Shown here in pieces: positions 43,458 through 49,671 of a DNA stretch of 64,000 nucleotides. A program made the translations under genes and the position numbers. How positions within the stretch are numbered: position 1 is the stretch's first letter; each line of letters opens with the position of its first letter. The stretch covers positions 1-64,000 of the forward strand of contig CACYLY010000014.1 in NCBI GenBank assembly GCA_902775355.1, given 5' to 3'. Source of the stretch: Oscillospiraceae bacterium. GTDB taxonomy: Bacteria; Bacillota; Clostridia; Oscillospirales; Oscillospiraceae. Under the pieces are notes generated by a model. The model worked only from the letters and a program-made list of their open reading frames with translations. It was not told the origin of the DNA and ran no database searches.

Positions 43458-45203
43458 CTATCCCTCCAGATTCTGCGCCCGGCACAGGGCCGCGTAGGCG
43501 CCGTTTTTCGCCATCAGCTCCGCATGGCTGCCAAGCTCGATGATATGTTCTCCTTCCACCACAGCGATGCAGTCGGCGTGCTTCACGGTGGAGAGCCGGT
43601 GGGCGATGATGATGGTGGTGCGGCCCACGCTCAACTCGTCCAGGGACTTCTGGATCCGCTGCTCGGTGACGGTGTCCAGGGCGGAGGTGGCCTCGTCCAG
43701 GATCAGCACCTTGGGGTTTTTCAGAAAGACCCGGGCGATGGAGAGCCGCTGCTTCTGCCCGCCGGAGAGCATCACGCCCCGCTCGCCGATATAGCTGTCG
43801 TAGCCGTCGGGCATGGCCAGGATCTCCTGGTGGATCTCCGCCCGCCTGGCGGCCTCCACGATCTCCTGGTCGGTGGCGTCGGGCTTGCCGTAGCGGATAT
43901 TCTCCCGGATGGTGCCGGCGAACATGAACACGTCCTGCTGCAGGATGCCGATGTTCCGGCGCAGGGAGTGCTGGGTGACCTCCCGGACATCCGTGCCGTC
44001 CACGGTGATGCTGCCCTCGCACACGTCGTAGAAGCGGGGGATCAGCTGGCACATGGTGGTCTTGCCGCCGCCGGAGGGGCCCACCACCGCCATGCACTGG
44101 CCGGGCTTGATGTGCAGGTCGATGTGGCTGAGCACCGGAACGCCGTTATCGTAGTGGAAGCTCACGTCGTTCAGGTCGATCTGCCCCCGGATCTCACCCA
44201 GCTCCTTCGCGTCCGGCGCGTCCCGGATCTCCGGCTCGGTGCGCATGATCTCCAGGAAGCGGGCCAGGCCCGCGCTGCCCTGCATGTACTGCTCGGCGAA
44301 CATCACGAGCTTCCGCAGGGGCGAGACGAAGGTGGAAACGTAGAGGGTGAAGGTGATGAGGTCCACCACGTCCATCTTCCCCAGCATGATGAGGATGCCG
44401 CCCACGGTGATGACCAGCACCTGCATGACGCCGGTGGTGAACTCCATGCCGCTCATGTAGAGGCCCATGGTCTTGTAATACTCCACCTTGGCGCCCTTGA
44501 ACACGTCGTTGGCGGAGTCGAACTTCTCCACCTCCATGTCCTCGTTGGCGAAGGCCTTGGCGGTACGCACGCCGGAGATGCTGCTCTCGATGGCGGCGGT
44601 GATCTCGGCGGTCTTGCGCTTGACCTCGATGTTGGCCTTCTTCATCCGCAGCCGCTGGCTCAGGGTGAACCAGAGGGTCAGGGGCAGGACGATGGCCAGC
44701 ACCAAGGCCAGCTGCCAGCGCAGGAAGAACATGATCACCAGCGAGCCCACGATGGTCAGGCTGCAGATGATGATGTTCTCCGGCCCGTGGTGGGCCAGTT
44801 CCGTCACCTCGAACAGGTCGCTGACCACCCGGCTCAGCAGCACGCCGGTGCGGTTCTTGTCAAAAAAGCTGCAGGACAGGTCCTGCATGTGGGTGAAGAG
44901 GTCCCGGCGCATGTCCGCCTCGGTGAGCACGCCCATCTTGTGGCCCAGCACGGTGATGATGTAATAGAGCACCGATTTGAGCACATAGGCCGCGATCATG
45001 ATGCCCATGACCAGGAAGAACACGCCGTAGAGCTTCTGGGGCAGCATGCTGCGCATGGACTGGCGGGACACATAGGGGAACACCAGGTCGATGATCGACA
45101 CGGCGAAGGCGCAGGCCATGTCGATGGCGAAGAGCTTCCTGTGCCGGGCGATATATCGGATGAAGATTTTCAGAGGCCTGTCGCTGTAATTGATCGGCTT
45201 CAT
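43458..45203 (-). CDS. ABC exporter, fused permease-ATPase
   Basis: The 581-residue half-transporter of the multidrug/lipid exporter type has six transmembrane helices in residues ~15-300. The ATPase has Walker A GPSGGGKTTM, Q-loop ILQQDVFMF, signature LSGGQKQRLSIARVF, Walker B VLILDEATSALD and H-loop IIIAHRLST. The start ATG at 45203 overlaps the rnhA stop (ATGA). Half-transporters dimerise, so it probably acts as a homodimer. Substrate unknown. Confidence 0.93.
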   Translation of the reverse strand: MKPINYSDRPLKIFIRYIARHRKLFAIDMACAFAVSIIDLVFPYVSRQSMRSMLPQKLYGVFFLVMGIMIAAYVLKSVLYYIITVLGHKMGVLTEADMRRDLFTHMQDLSCSFFDKNRTGVLLSRVVSDLFEVTELAHHGPENIIICSLTIVGSLVIMFFLRWQLALVLAIVLPLTLWFTLSQRLRMKKANIEVKRKTAEITAAIESSISGVRTAKAFANEDMEVEKFDSANDVFKGAKVEYYKTMGLYMSGMEFTTGVMQVLVITVGGILIMLGKMDVVDLITFTLYVSTFVSPLRKLVMFAEQYMQGSAGLARFLEIMRTEPEIRDAPDAKELGEIRGQIDLNDVSFHYDNGVPVLSHIDLHIKPGQCMAVVGPSGGGKTTMCQLIPRFYDVCEGSITVDGTDVREVTQHSLRRNIGILQQDVFMFAGTIRENIRYGKPDATDQEIVEAARRAEIHQEILAMPDGYDSYIGERGVMLSGGQKQRLSIARVFLKNPKVLILDEATSALDTVTEQRIQKSLDELSVGRTTIIIAHRLSTVKHADCIAVVEGEHIIELGSHAELMAKNGAYAALCRAQNLEG

Positions 45204-45637
45204 GTGAATTTCTCTCTCTCTGCCACGGCCAGCTTGTCGCAGCGGTTGTTGTATTCGTTGTCGGCGTGGCCCTTGACCCAGTGATAGTGCATCTCGTGCT
45301 GACAGGTGAGGTCCAGCAGCATGGTCCAGAGATCCGGGTTCAGGGCGGGCTTCTTGTCGGACTTGATCCAGCCCTTCCTGCGCCAGCCCCAAGCCCAGCC
45401 CTTTTCCAGGGCGTCGATGACGTACTTGGAGTCGGACCAGAGCTCCACCACGCAGCTTTCCTTCAGCGCCAGCAGGCCCTGGATCACGGCGGTGAGCTCC
45501 ATGCGGTTGTTGGTGGTCATTTCCTCGCCGCCGGAGAGCTCCCGCTCATGGCCGTTATAGCGCAGGACGACGCCCCAGCCTCCCGGCCCGGGATTCCCGC
45601 TGCAGGCCCCGTCGGTATAGAGTTCGACTGTTTTCAT
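45200..45637 (-). CDS. rnhA: ribonuclease HI
   Basis: The 145-residue RNase HI cleaves the RNA strand of RNA-DNA hybrids. The catalytic carboxylates are visible: YTDGACSGNPGPGG (Asp), NNRMELTAV (Glu), WSDSKYVIDAL (Asp) and KGHADNEYNNRCDKLA (His and Asp). The ATG at 45637 has AAGGAAGG seven bases upstream. That sequence is the edge of a palindromic repeat unit (CTTATAAGGAAGG). The same frame is open upstream into the DUF559 gene, so a fusion protein could also be made. Confidence 0.93.
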   Translation of the reverse strand: MKTVELYTDGACSGNPGPGGWGVVLRYNGHERELSGGEEMTTNNRMELTAVIQGLLALKESCVVELWSDSKYVIDALEKGWAWGWRRKGWIKSDKKPALNPDLWTMLLDLTCQHEMHYHWVKGHADNEYNNRCDKLAVAEREKFT

Positions 45638-46402
45638 TCTTTCCTTCCTTATAAGCTCCCCTGTGTAAGGGGAGCTGTCAGCCGCCGTCTCACGAAAGGC
45701 GGATGACTGAGGGGTTGTCCCACCGTCCCCGCTCCTTGTAATCTCCCCTGAGAAAGAGGATTTGTCACCAAATCTGACTGAGGGGTTGTTCAGTTGCTCC
45801 ATTTCGCTTTGATGAGGTTGGACACACAACCCCTCCGTCGCGGCGCTTGCGGGGGACGCGCCGTGACACCTCCCCTTGCTCAGGGGAGGTTCTTTCTGCG
45901 TCTCCGTAAGCTCCCCTGTGTAAGGGGAGCTGGCGCGAAGCGCCTGAGGGGTTGTTCCCCTTTCATCCACCTTCCTTATAAGCTCCCCTGTGCAAGGGGA
46001 GCTGTCCCAGTGCGCACACTGGGACTGAGGGGTTGTAGCTCCACCCTCTACTCTCTGTTTCACGATCAGATCAATATAGGCACATACGCCCTCAAAGTTT
46101 TCTTTCAGCTGATTGTTGGCAATCCGAAGGACTTCCAGGTCATACCCTTCCAGGTACTGCGTTCTGGCCGCGTCTTTCTCCTGCCCTGCCTCTTCGTAGT
46201 GCTGTGAGCCGTCCAGCTCGACGACCAGCTTTGCTTTTGCGCAGTAAAAATCGGCAATGTATTTTCCCAGCACCTTCTGCCTGTAAAACCTGACAGGATA
46301 GCTTCGGAGAAATTGATACCAAAGCTTTCTCTCTTCTTTGGTCATTTCTCTCCGCAGATTTCTGGCAAGAGGAACCAGTTTTTTCGTTCCCTTTCGATCC
46401 AT
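45200..46402 (-). CDS. DUF559 nuclease reading in frame through repeats into RNase HI
   Basis: The open frame has 400 codons. Residues ~1-118 form a DUF559 domain, related to Vsr/PD-(D/E)XK nucleases: LRREMTKEERKLWYQFLRSYPVRF, then GKYIADFYCAKAKLVVELDGSQHYE with the expected Asp and Glu. Residues ~119-255 translate five palindromic repeat units (TTPQ..SSPYTGELIRK-type strings). The last 145 residues are RNase HI. Separate genes are more likely than a true fusion, because rnhA has its own ATG and ribosome site. The DUF559 start codon is served by GGAGGGG, the end of another repeat unit. No stop separates the two domains. Confidence 0.6.
   Translation of the reverse strand: MDRKGTKKLVPLARNLRREMTKEERKLWYQFLRSYPVRFYRQKVLGKYIADFYCAKAKLVVELDGSQHYEEAGQEKDAARTQYLEGYDLEVLRIANNQLKENFEGVCAYIDLIVKQRVEGGATTPQSQCAHWDSSPCTGELIRKVDERGTTPQALRASSPYTGELTETQKEPPLSKGRCHGASPASAATEGLCVQPHQSEMEQLNNPSVRFGDKSSFSGEITRSGDGGTTPQSSAFRETAADSSPYTGELIRKERMKTVELYTDGACSGNPGPGGWGVVLRYNGHERELSGGEEMTTNNRMELTAVIQGLLALKESCVVELWSDSKYVIDALEKGWAWGWRRKGWIKSDKKPALNPDLWTMLLDLTCQHEMHYHWVKGHADNEYNNRCDKLAVAEREKFT
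45640..46040. repeat. five palindromic units between rnhA and DUF559
   Basis: Units begin near 45650 (plus), 45735 (plus), 45829 (minus), 45905 (plus) and 45972 (plus). Consensus: TTCCTTATAAGCTCCCCT, a short loop, AAGGGGAGCTG, a variable second hairpin, then CTGAGGGGTTGT. Only the second hairpin differs strongly (for example CCGCC...GGCGG versus CCCAGTGCGCACACTGGG). Confidence 0.85.
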
Positions 46403-46530
46403 GGGCTACAACCCCTCCGTCATCCGGCTCGCGGGGGATCGCCGGATGACACCTCCCCTTACTCAGGGGAGGTTCTTCCATGTCTCGTTCCTTATAAGCT
46501 CTTCTTGCACAGGGGAGGTTTTTCGCGTAT
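46403..46530. repeat. palindromic unit upstream of DUF559 (inverted) and a partial unit
   Basis: 46406-46475 is an inverted unit (ACAACCCCTCCGTC...GACACCTCCCC...GGGGAGG). Its terminal 19 bases (46403-46421) pair with 46023-46041 on the other side of the DUF559 gene with two mismatches. A partial unit lies at 46489-46521. Confidence 0.8.
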
Positions 46531-46564: not shown

Positions 46565-46945
46565 TCAGATCCCCCGCTGGTAGCGGTCCTTCAGCACCAG
46601 GTACTCGCTGCGGTCGATGAGGCCGTTTTTCAGCCAGTCGTCCAGTTGGGCGATGCGGCGGACCTTGTCCCGCTGGAAGTGGTCCTCCCCGGTCTGCTCG
46701 CAGACGATGCAGGGGGCCTCCGGCGCGCGGAAATCCCGGCGGGCGGAGCGGCCGGCGGTGACCGGCGGGCGCTGCATGGACGGCGCGGGCCGGTGCAGCT
46801 CCACGGACGGCGTCTGCCGCTGGGCGGCAGGCGGGGCGGAGGCGTTCTGCCCGCTCTTCTGCTGGCCTTGCTTGTTCTTGGCGGCCTTCAAAATCGCCGG
46901 CAGGATCCAGAACAAGAGAAGAAAGACGATAATTCCACCACTCAT
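46565..46945 (-). CDS. small membrane protein with SHOCT-like C-terminus
   Basis: The 126-residue protein has a short N-terminal helix (IIVFLLLFWILPAILKAA), a disordered Gln/Pro/Ala-rich middle and a C-terminal helical pair (RRIAQLDDWLKNGLIDRSEYLVLKDRYQRGI) of SHOCT type. CIVCEQTGEDH in between may be a partial metal site. It starts 37 bases after gyrA and is probably co-transcribed. The ATG follows AAAGGAGGAGCGCAC. Function unknown. Confidence 0.72.
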   Translation of the reverse strand: MSGGIIVFLLLFWILPAILKAAKNKQGQQKSGQNASAPPAAQRQTPSVELHRPAPSMQRPPVTAGRSARRDFRAPEAPCIVCEQTGEDHFQRDKVRRIAQLDDWLKNGLIDRSEYLVLKDRYQRGI

Positions 46946-46982: not shown

Positions 46983-49432
<2,450 letters not shown>

Positions 49433-49439
49433 AATTCCA

Positions 49440-49671
49440 ATTCCTTCCTTATAAGCTCCCCCTCTGGGGGAGCTGTCAGCGAAGCTGACTGAGGGGTCGT
49501 CCCGCTTGCTCCGTTCCTTATAACTCCCCCGCGCAAGGGGAGCTGGCGCGAAGCGCCTGAGGGGTCGTCCAATTTGCTCTATCGGGGCTGGATATACAAC
49601 CCCTTCGTCATCCGGCTCGCGGGGGATCGCCGGATGCCACCTCCCCTTGCACAGGGGAGGTCAAACGGAAC
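49440..49671. repeat. three palindromic units between gyrB and gyrA
   Basis: Units at 49446-49500 (plus; second hairpin CAGCGAAGCTG), 49515-49570 (plus; GGCGCGAAGCGCC) and 49597-49662 (minus; ATCCGGCTCGCG...CCGGAT). Same family as 45640-46040. Confidence 0.82.

Follow-up and report, generated by a model that had tools for sequence, protein, structure and literature searches.

A DUF559 nuclease gene enclosed by inward-facing two-hairpin units as a candidate mobile cassette in an Oscillospiraceae bacterium

Why should a small nuclease gene sit between two copies of a palindromic repeat that face each other, and could the enzyme be the agent by which the repeat is spread? The question is raised by a DUF559 gene in the window, by which is meant the whole 64,000-nucleotide stretch of contig CACYLY010000014.1 of an Oscillospiraceae bacterium. 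RAYT/REP systems have a layout like that of the DUF559 cassettes, and by analogy with them the initial annotation of this locus proposed that a nuclease carried within the repeats may help to spread them. In the sequence comparisons set out below the anatomy of the cassette is fixed, its ends are discrete and match each other, unit type is associated with nuclease lineage and gene-less forms occur at the same site. The explanation that we favour, and regard as probable on such comparisons, is that of a selfish mobile cassette in which the units serve as recognition ends for the DUF559 nuclease, with the whole being copied by host recombination or repair and giving rise to gene-less derivatives.

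The nuclease gene and its units at the rnhA locus

The DUF559 gene of the window lies, as had been claimed, between inward-facing two-hairpin units, with one unit upstream of the ATG and an opposite-facing one downstream (Table 1). Each unit is made up of a pyrimidine arm, a loop, a purine arm, a second hairpin and a purine tail, with both tails directed at DUF559. The 19-base ends (46023-46041 and 46403-46421), described at the outset as inverted repeats with two mismatches, match at 17 of 19 positions, and a repeat search of the window recovered an inverted 17-nt pair at 94% at the two cassette ends. Across all 2.86 Mb of the genome the 13-base sequence GAGGGGTTGTAGC is confined to these two ends, with the backwards control pattern occurring once. 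The Shine-Dalgarno-like GGAGGGG is indeed supplied by the 5′ unit nine bases before the ATG, and the DUF559 frame does run without a stop through five units, the cassette's own 3′ unit included, and then into rnhA. A search of Rfam at gathering scores returned nothing in the window, in three relatives or in the E. coli K-12 stretch considered below.

Table 1. Features of the DUF559 cassette and its surroundings in the window (positions count from the first base of the window)
Feature	Position	Strand	Details
DUF559 (PF04480) nuclease coding region	46070..46402	-	ATG at 46402; Pfam, E 5.1e-30
5′ unit, type A	46403..46473	-	stem ACCTCCCC/GGGGAGGT, second hairpin, purine tail GACGGAGGGGTTGT towards gene; detector gives 46413-46473, tail and end bases extend to 46403
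3′ unit, type B	45983..46041	+	faces gene; stem CTCCCC/GGGGAG, hairpin, tail GACTGAGGGGTTGT
Single 400-aa open frame (DUF559, translated units, RNase HI)	45200..46402	-	
Further unit in DUF559-rnhA spacer	45911..45955	+	unit detectors
Further unit, type A, in DUF559-rnhA spacer	45826..45891	-	repeat search and unit detectors
Degenerate unit in DUF559-rnhA spacer	45740..45789	+	repeat search and unit detector
Further unit in spacer, adjoining rnhA	45656..45718	+	unit detectors
rnhA (RNase HI), downstream neighbour	45203..45640	-	Pfam
Small upstream gene, called SHOCT here	46565..46945	-	every Pfam match below cut-off
Half-unit remnant outside 5′ unit	46497..46520		repeat search
Gene-less inward unit pair (miniature form without nuclease)	49524..49661		unit detector

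In the rnhA-linked cassettes L154, L156, L160, L164, L165, L166 and L177 the DUF559 frame is free of stops up to rnhA in all seven (77-420 nt) and joins rnhA in frame in five of the seven, stops being present in 12 of 14 other frames, such that a DUF559-RNase HI fusion with the repeats as linker is possible. Elsewhere in the window the gene at 46983-49432, which we take to be GyrA-like, is made up of two overlapping frames (48827-49432 and 46983-49199), which points to a frameshift or a short deletion and may be an error of assembly.

The source genome has three DUF559 genes, these being the window gene, L002 and L003. The inward units around L002 have a different core (CTTCCCC, tail GATGAGG), the 5′ one being imperfect and detected only by the relaxed detector, and the L002/L061 cassette lies between what are presumably a glycine-riboswitch-like leader and serC. 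L003 lies before a MutS-like start without an inward pair, such that symmetry is no fixed rule even within this genome.

Recurrence, ends and structure of the units

Two sets of DUF559 genes were compared. In the genus set, 32 of 61 genomes had a DUF559 match, one of these solely within a very long frame, and 57 of the 60 matches were used, those left out being one match cut by a contig edge and two within frames of more than 1,500 aa. The 79 named loci (579 kb) come from the best 80 of 583 relatives, which were selected because they have DUF559, and as such represent a sample of near relatives. Together these give 136 genes, or 134 once the duplicates L137 and L090 are removed, and since L019 and L153 are the same contig counted twice the true gene numbers are one lower.

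With a strict detector, 35 of the 79 DUF559 genes of the named loci had both inward units no more than 70 nt away, compared with 16 of 31,365 intervals drawn at random from those loci. When the units are taken as the starting point, 39 of the 41 inward pairs with a spacing of 300-600 nt in these 579 kb enclose DUF559, a figure that, the loci having been picked for DUF559, tells which gene occupies such pairs and not their genome-wide frequency. Without recourse to a detector, the inverted repeat of the flanks exceeded the 99th percentile of 1,024 control intervals in 77 of 128 DUF559 genes (31/56 in the genus set and 46/72 at the named loci), six genes with short flanks having been left out. 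The relaxed detector, applied to all 134 genes, found both inward units at 65, a 5′ unit only at 19, a 3′ unit only at 17 and neither at 33, bearing in mind that the unit detectors require paired stems and favour well-kept units. In keeping with what the initial annotation had expected, DUF559 flanks in relatives are strongly enriched for units, and the boundaries of these units are conserved, as is seen in the alignment ends below. Chance symmetry of the two ends was considered as an explanation and is ruled out by the control intervals together with the permutations and genome counts given later.

Some DUF559 lineages look like settled genes. L003, L049, L055 and L056, which form one clade with L033, lie directly 5′ of a MutS-like start and have no inward pair; MutS domains were confirmed by Pfam for L049 alone among the clade members, and this DUF559 clade is perhaps a settled repair gene. 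A second lineage (L120, L122, L126, L129, L130, L131, L143, L145 and L150) is one in which most members resemble each other in a promoter-like sequence upstream of the gene. A gene-less unit pair follows right behind the DUF559 stop in at least four of its loci, L129, L131, L143 and L145 (also the duplicate L137). Approximately 135 nt past the 3′ unit, L091, L095, L097, L098, L103 and L111 share a second A+T-rich hairpin-bearing stretch, for which an Rfam search in L091, L097 and L103 gave no match.

The 65 detected cassettes measure 437-508 nt between outer stem ends, with a median of 456, and each comprises a unit, the DUF559 gene and an inverted unit of like kind with no other gene inside. 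In a typical cassette AAAG precedes a 5′ unit of CCTCCC...GGGAGG, hairpin and GACGGAGGGATTGT, followed by the ATG, DUF559 and its stop, and then by a 3′ unit of ACAATCCCTCAGTC, hairpin and GACAGCTCCC...GGGAG, after which comes CCTT. Flanking DNA is unlike between most cassette loci. Among 169 same-core cassette pairs the left end of the alignment fell between -10 and +3 nt of the outer end of the unit in 116 and the right end between -3 and +10 nt in 109, and on these alignments the homology between cassettes at different loci stops mostly at the outer unit ends. Outside the units of 61 cassettes strong conservation is limited to a single G on the left side and to CC on the right side, with less than 0.5 bit per position elsewhere; there is a weak A/T-rich stretch outside the units and, on the 3′ side, a weak T/A-rich run after the CC. 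No target-site duplication was detected in these 61 cassettes, the longest direct repeat of the flanks being 3.48 compared with 3.33 when shuffled (53 of 500 shuffles as high). Gene-less unit pairs with the same outer ends adjoin cassettes, one of them in the window (Table 1).

The unit cores vary even inside one genome, with CTCCCC, CTCCCTT, CTCCCTC, CTTCCCC, CTCTCC, CCCCTT and others being found. Over 148 distinct units the tail agrees with the mirror image of the purine arm of the stem at a mean of 6.32 out of 8 compared with 5.46 when tails and arms are re-paired (0/2,000 as high). The direct relation between tail and arm is weaker yet also above shuffles (5.51 compared with 5.21, 0/1,000), because the arms are nearly symmetric, and the reverse-complement relation is low (2.07). 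The second hairpin co-varies, with 98% of cells paired and 20 cells changed on both sides compared with 3.7 when shuffled, in 21 units that were hand-picked from the detected ones such that the covariation leans towards structure. In their sequence the units follow the pattern of the intrastrand-triplex repeats (BoxC, PIT and TM), and a triplex is predicted. By reading, the TMECO consensus CCCTCNCCC...GGGNGAGGG is not matched by the cores of the window or of other Clostridia, and there is no GTAG tag, the tails being GAC(T/G)GAGGGG, GATGAGG, GAGGGAG, GGGGGAT and similar.

The position of the units relative to the gene has a bearing on translation. An in-frame ATG lies no more than 25 nt from the 5′ tail in 53 of the 65 cassettes, the 5′ unit probably also acting as a ribosome-binding leader, and the DUF559 stop codon falls within the 3′ unit in 30, before it in 19 and beyond it in 16. 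The units might on this basis be expression elements, a ribosome-binding leader and a terminator, of an ordinary horizontally transferred gene, with which the near ATG and the CC followed by a weak T/A-rich stretch at the 3′ outer end would agree. We find this hardly credible, as the units are widespread without the gene, gene-less pairs keep both ends, the co-variation of tail and stem would be superfluous for expression and PIT elements had neither promoter nor terminator activity in earlier work according to the available text of Holder 2015 (PMC4666352).

Pairing of nuclease and units and the occupancy of shared sites

The two ends of a cassette resemble one another more than they resemble those of other cassettes. 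Similarity of left and right units was 1.46 within a cassette compared with 0.91 between cassettes, with 0 of 10,000 permutations as high, although there are a few mixed-core cassettes, an example being CTCCCC with CTCCCTT. When core type was placed on the DUF559 protein tree (95 labelled of 134 rows) it changed 22 times compared with 59.0 when shuffled (0/200 as low), a count to which common descent of whole cassettes contributes and which is taken on a tree with many unresolved forks. Judged by these protein and unit comparisons, unit type follows nuclease lineage. The same association is seen between genomes, two unit patterns matching in 26 of the 31 genus genomes that have a short DUF559 gene compared with 10 of the 30 that have none (Fisher p 8e-5), in a set in which many assemblies are incomplete and G055 is classed as being without a short DUF559 gene. 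The mean number of unit matches was 12.6 with the gene and 2.6 without, the backwards control patterns giving zero in these 61 genomes. As such the repeats are not equally common where DUF559 is lacking, which was the outcome that the initial annotation had set against its own proposal.

The protein was modelled from a 45-sequence alignment with a mean pLDDT of 87. Foldseek placed the endonuclease-like Neisseria gonorrhoeae protein 3hrl (TM 0.83 by target) first among solved folds and the homing endonuclease I-Bth0305I, 3r3p, second (E 1e-4, TM 0.80 by target length), these two alone passing E 0.001, with mitochondrial ribosome proteins and other nucleases next and Vsr among the weaker matches (E 0.24-0.33). 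The sequence profile likewise ranks 3hrl (E 2.4e-18) and then 3r3p (E 0.0047), and the six further matches at E 0.35-0.91 resemble chance. The catalytic-type residues D51, E62, D64, H68 and D77 do not vary among 18 proteins drawn from Clostridia, E. coli, Deinococcus, Sphingomonas and cyanobacteria, while in the alignment of 45 relatives D51, E62, D64 and D77 are invariant and H68 nearly so. E62, D64, H68 and D77 are presumably the EDxHD motif. By its predicted fold the DUF559 protein is a homing-endonuclease-like (EDxHD/Vsr-fold) nuclease. No HUH tyrosine (Y1) transposase was present among Pfam matches up to E 1, in which DUF559 and RNase H were found. The analogy with RAYT elements holds for the layout, that is a gene in inverted palindromic units accompanied by gene-less copies, and gives way at the enzyme, which has no tyrosine transposase domain.

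DUF559 could instead be a Vsr-like repair nuclease and the units unstable hot spots that receive or tolerate small genes. The weak fold matches to Vsr would be consistent with this, as would the DUF559 clade directly before mutS, the YcjD profile that is reported to find Vsr (PMC1189080, available in part) and the Caulobacter DUF559 protein VsrA, needed for the SOS response in a methylation mutant and proposed as a repair enzyme in the available portion of its description (PMC12907096). Triplex motifs are furthermore reported, in the part of Holder 2015 accessible to us (PMC4666352), as widespread and as marking unstable loci. Hot spots would be expected to hold varied genes, yet gene-spaced inward pairs hold DUF559 almost without exception, albeit in loci chosen for DUF559, and the two ends agree in core and track the protein tree, making this second explanation distinctly improbable.

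Comparison of the same site in different relatives reveals several states. For the stretch separating the upstream gene from rnhA, 30 loci fetched from among 59 genomes with an rnhA match were read. The cassette is present in seven, and by reading L158 and L159 have gene-less unit pairs and L169 has a half unit; L155 and L183 are of little help, ending close to the gene. At the serC site of L002, for which nine loci were given and eight placed, the full cassette is present in G000 and in G043 (here with further units), the near relative G006 has a gene-less pair with the same core as the cassette, G021 and G078 have gene-less pairs with a CTCCCTC core and G080, G062, G036 and G063 have 17-65 nt in which no unit pair was seen. 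The cassette at the L028 site is also present in G084 (four loci given, one placed) and none was placed for the L036 site. In orthologous intergenic regions of G006, G036 and G043 unit arrays are present or absent with the intervening sequence replaced. A search with joined flanks yielded the serC series, with no ancestral junction among the matches listed and no base-exact pre-insertion site. The comparison of empty and filled sites that had been suggested for close relatives accordingly provides filled, gene-less and pair-free states at serC and stops short of a base-exact empty site.

The serC series bears on the main rival to the mobile cassette, namely strict homing, in which the nuclease gene would enter, cut and convert gene-less pairs already in place as its target, with the units being spread by other means. 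Having a same-core gene-less pair and a full cassette in near relatives is what strict homing would generate, and the presence of a homing endonuclease among the nearest solved folds, the matching cores at both cassette ends and the lack of any sign of target duplication are likewise in its favour. Gene loss from a full cassette accounts for the serC pair equally well, however, and the spacers of gene-less pairs differ in both length and sequence such that no common insertion point is visible, while homology spanning both units occurs between unrelated flanks. Strict homing into pre-existing pairs is therefore in our estimation unlikely, if less so than the other two alternatives.

In the selfish mobile cassette that we prefer, the DUF559 protein would most likely recognise the unit itself, or the hairpin or triplex formed by the single-stranded unit during replication, and would then cut or nick it. 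Cutting would drive copying by host recombination or replication repair, and the cassette together with its gene-less derivatives (the unit pair and the solo unit) would be copied into new intergenic places, with gene-less pairs and solo units being parasites or remnants of the cassette. Against it stand the observations that even the relaxed detector finds both inward units at no more than 65 of the 134 genes and that unit patterns occur in 10 of 30 genomes without short DUF559, as well as the mismatch-repair role proposed for Caulobacter VsrA in the available text (PMC12907096). The proposal that the nuclease helps to spread the repeats gains from the recurrence, the boundaries and the unit load, comparisons from which we infer mobility; the act of mobilisation is in this account still conjectural.

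Other phyla, E. coli ycjD and comparison with known systems

Outside the Clostridia, 38 plasmid-collection and three phage records matched, of which 24 and one respectively were fetched. With L305, a very large protein, left out, 24 loci were scored from 23 plasmid-collection records (some being whole chromosomes) and one phage record. At 11 of these there is an inverted repeat across DUF559 that none of 200 shuffles reaches, comprising four Deinococcus, three Sphingomonas, Novosphingobium, Sinorhizobium meliloti, Pseudanabaena and one Picosynechococcus. The remaining 13 have no clear inverted repeat on both sides, Synechocystis and the other Picosynechococcus being borderline and 11 not significant, and in a cross-locus comparison with the 3′ flanks of other loci nine of 24 score above every other locus. 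The Sphingomonas positives are plasmids of one strain and lie inside pntA-pntB, inside sufB-sufC and before dnaG. In Deinococcus the tails by reading point away from the gene, indicating that the orientation is not universal. Most other matches in a phylum-wide search were weak or in long frames, and among 14 loci read from it units are close on both sides in L249 only and upstream only in L248. The flanks of eight of nine loci from a virus catalogue were read, with L281 having units on both sides, L279 and L277 (its 3′ flank cut) having unit-like stretches and the other five having no units, two of these with 3′ flanks of just 15 and 60 nt. Beside a gonococcal DUF559 relative (L298) a flanking short stretch is by reading copied direct and not inverted.

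In E. coli K-12, ycjD (b1289; L311), located between sapF and fabI, is a DUF559 gene (E 1.4e-49) whose product is 46% identical to the window protein over 101 positions. By reading, its last codons and stop lie within CCCTCTCCCTGA and a triplex-type unit, which resembles TMECO, lies between ycjD and fabI. A 751-base query around ycjD was covered to at least 80% in 3,349 of 5,426 E. coli genomes, and places similar to the triplex unit, itself used as a query, were present in 5,375 of the 5,426 (median 17), such that in E. coli the presence of units does not track that of ycjD. Strains without ycjD were considered as empty sites and rejected, the three that were read (L312-L314) having efflux genes next to sapF; an exchange of ycjD and eef is described in the accessible part of PMC12817139. 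Transposase or integrase remnants were never found near E. coli triplex sites, as stated in the available text of Holder 2015 (PMC4666352). It is conceivable, with the balance somewhat against it, that DUF559 proteins are dedicated bacteria-wide mobilising enzymes of palindromic BoxC-type triplex repeats, in which case they would form an element class with an enzyme fold, triplex ends and gene-less derivatives of its own and with ycjD of K-12 as a resident member.

The enzyme class is not new, as YcjD has already been placed in the PD-(D/E)XK superfamily and related to Vsr in the portion of PMC1189080 available. The link of a DUF559 nuclease to palindromic repeats is what is new within the open-licence literature searched, in which no report connecting DUF559 or ycjD with palindromic repeats was found among the matches listed; most subscription journals lay outside this scope. 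As the arrangement recurs in many gut bacteria and in several phyla, the DUF559 nuclease becomes a candidate for the agent by which such repeats, hitherto without a known means of dispersal, are spread, and one that is testable at once as E. coli K-12 carries both ycjD and 23 reported triplex units. If true, the known mobile elements would gain a class that depends on a homing-endonuclease-like enzyme, and a role would be assigned to a large protein family whose name says no more than domain of unknown function.

Among known systems, the EDxHD homing endonucleases (I-Bth0305I, 3r3p) are alike in fold, in profile and in the conserved E, D, H and D, but DUF559 is seen without an intron or intein, its gene lying in inverted repeats of its own at unrelated sites. 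YcjD and Vsr-like proteins, including VsrA with its proposed role in repair, share the DUF559 domain. The gene-less units are like MITEs in being short and non-coding with inverted ends and apparently derived from a gene-bearing form, yet differ in showing no trace of target duplication, nor was a transposase found. The BoxC, PIT and TM repeats likewise have a pyrimidine arm, a purine arm and a third purine tract, are mostly intergenic where read and in E. coli K-12 include one triplex-type unit that adjoins the DUF559 gene ycjD. The Clostridial units differ from them in core and in having a variable second hairpin between the purine arm and the tail, which is absent from the E. coli triplex-repeat consensus as given in the available part of Holder 2015 (PMC4666352). 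Among REPs, those tagged with CGTC seem to have no dedicated transposase according to the accessible text of PMC3733652. The RAYT/REPtron elements (TnpA-REP, with REP and BIME) differ in that RAYT is a HUH tyrosine transposase and not a PD-(D/E)XK-type nuclease, whereas DUF559 units have two hairpins with a purine tail that mirrors the stem and by reading no GTAG tag. With these elements the DUF559 cassettes have in common a single small nuclease gene inside inverted palindromic units, numerous solo or paired units without the gene at other places and an enzyme lineage that is tied to the type of repeat.
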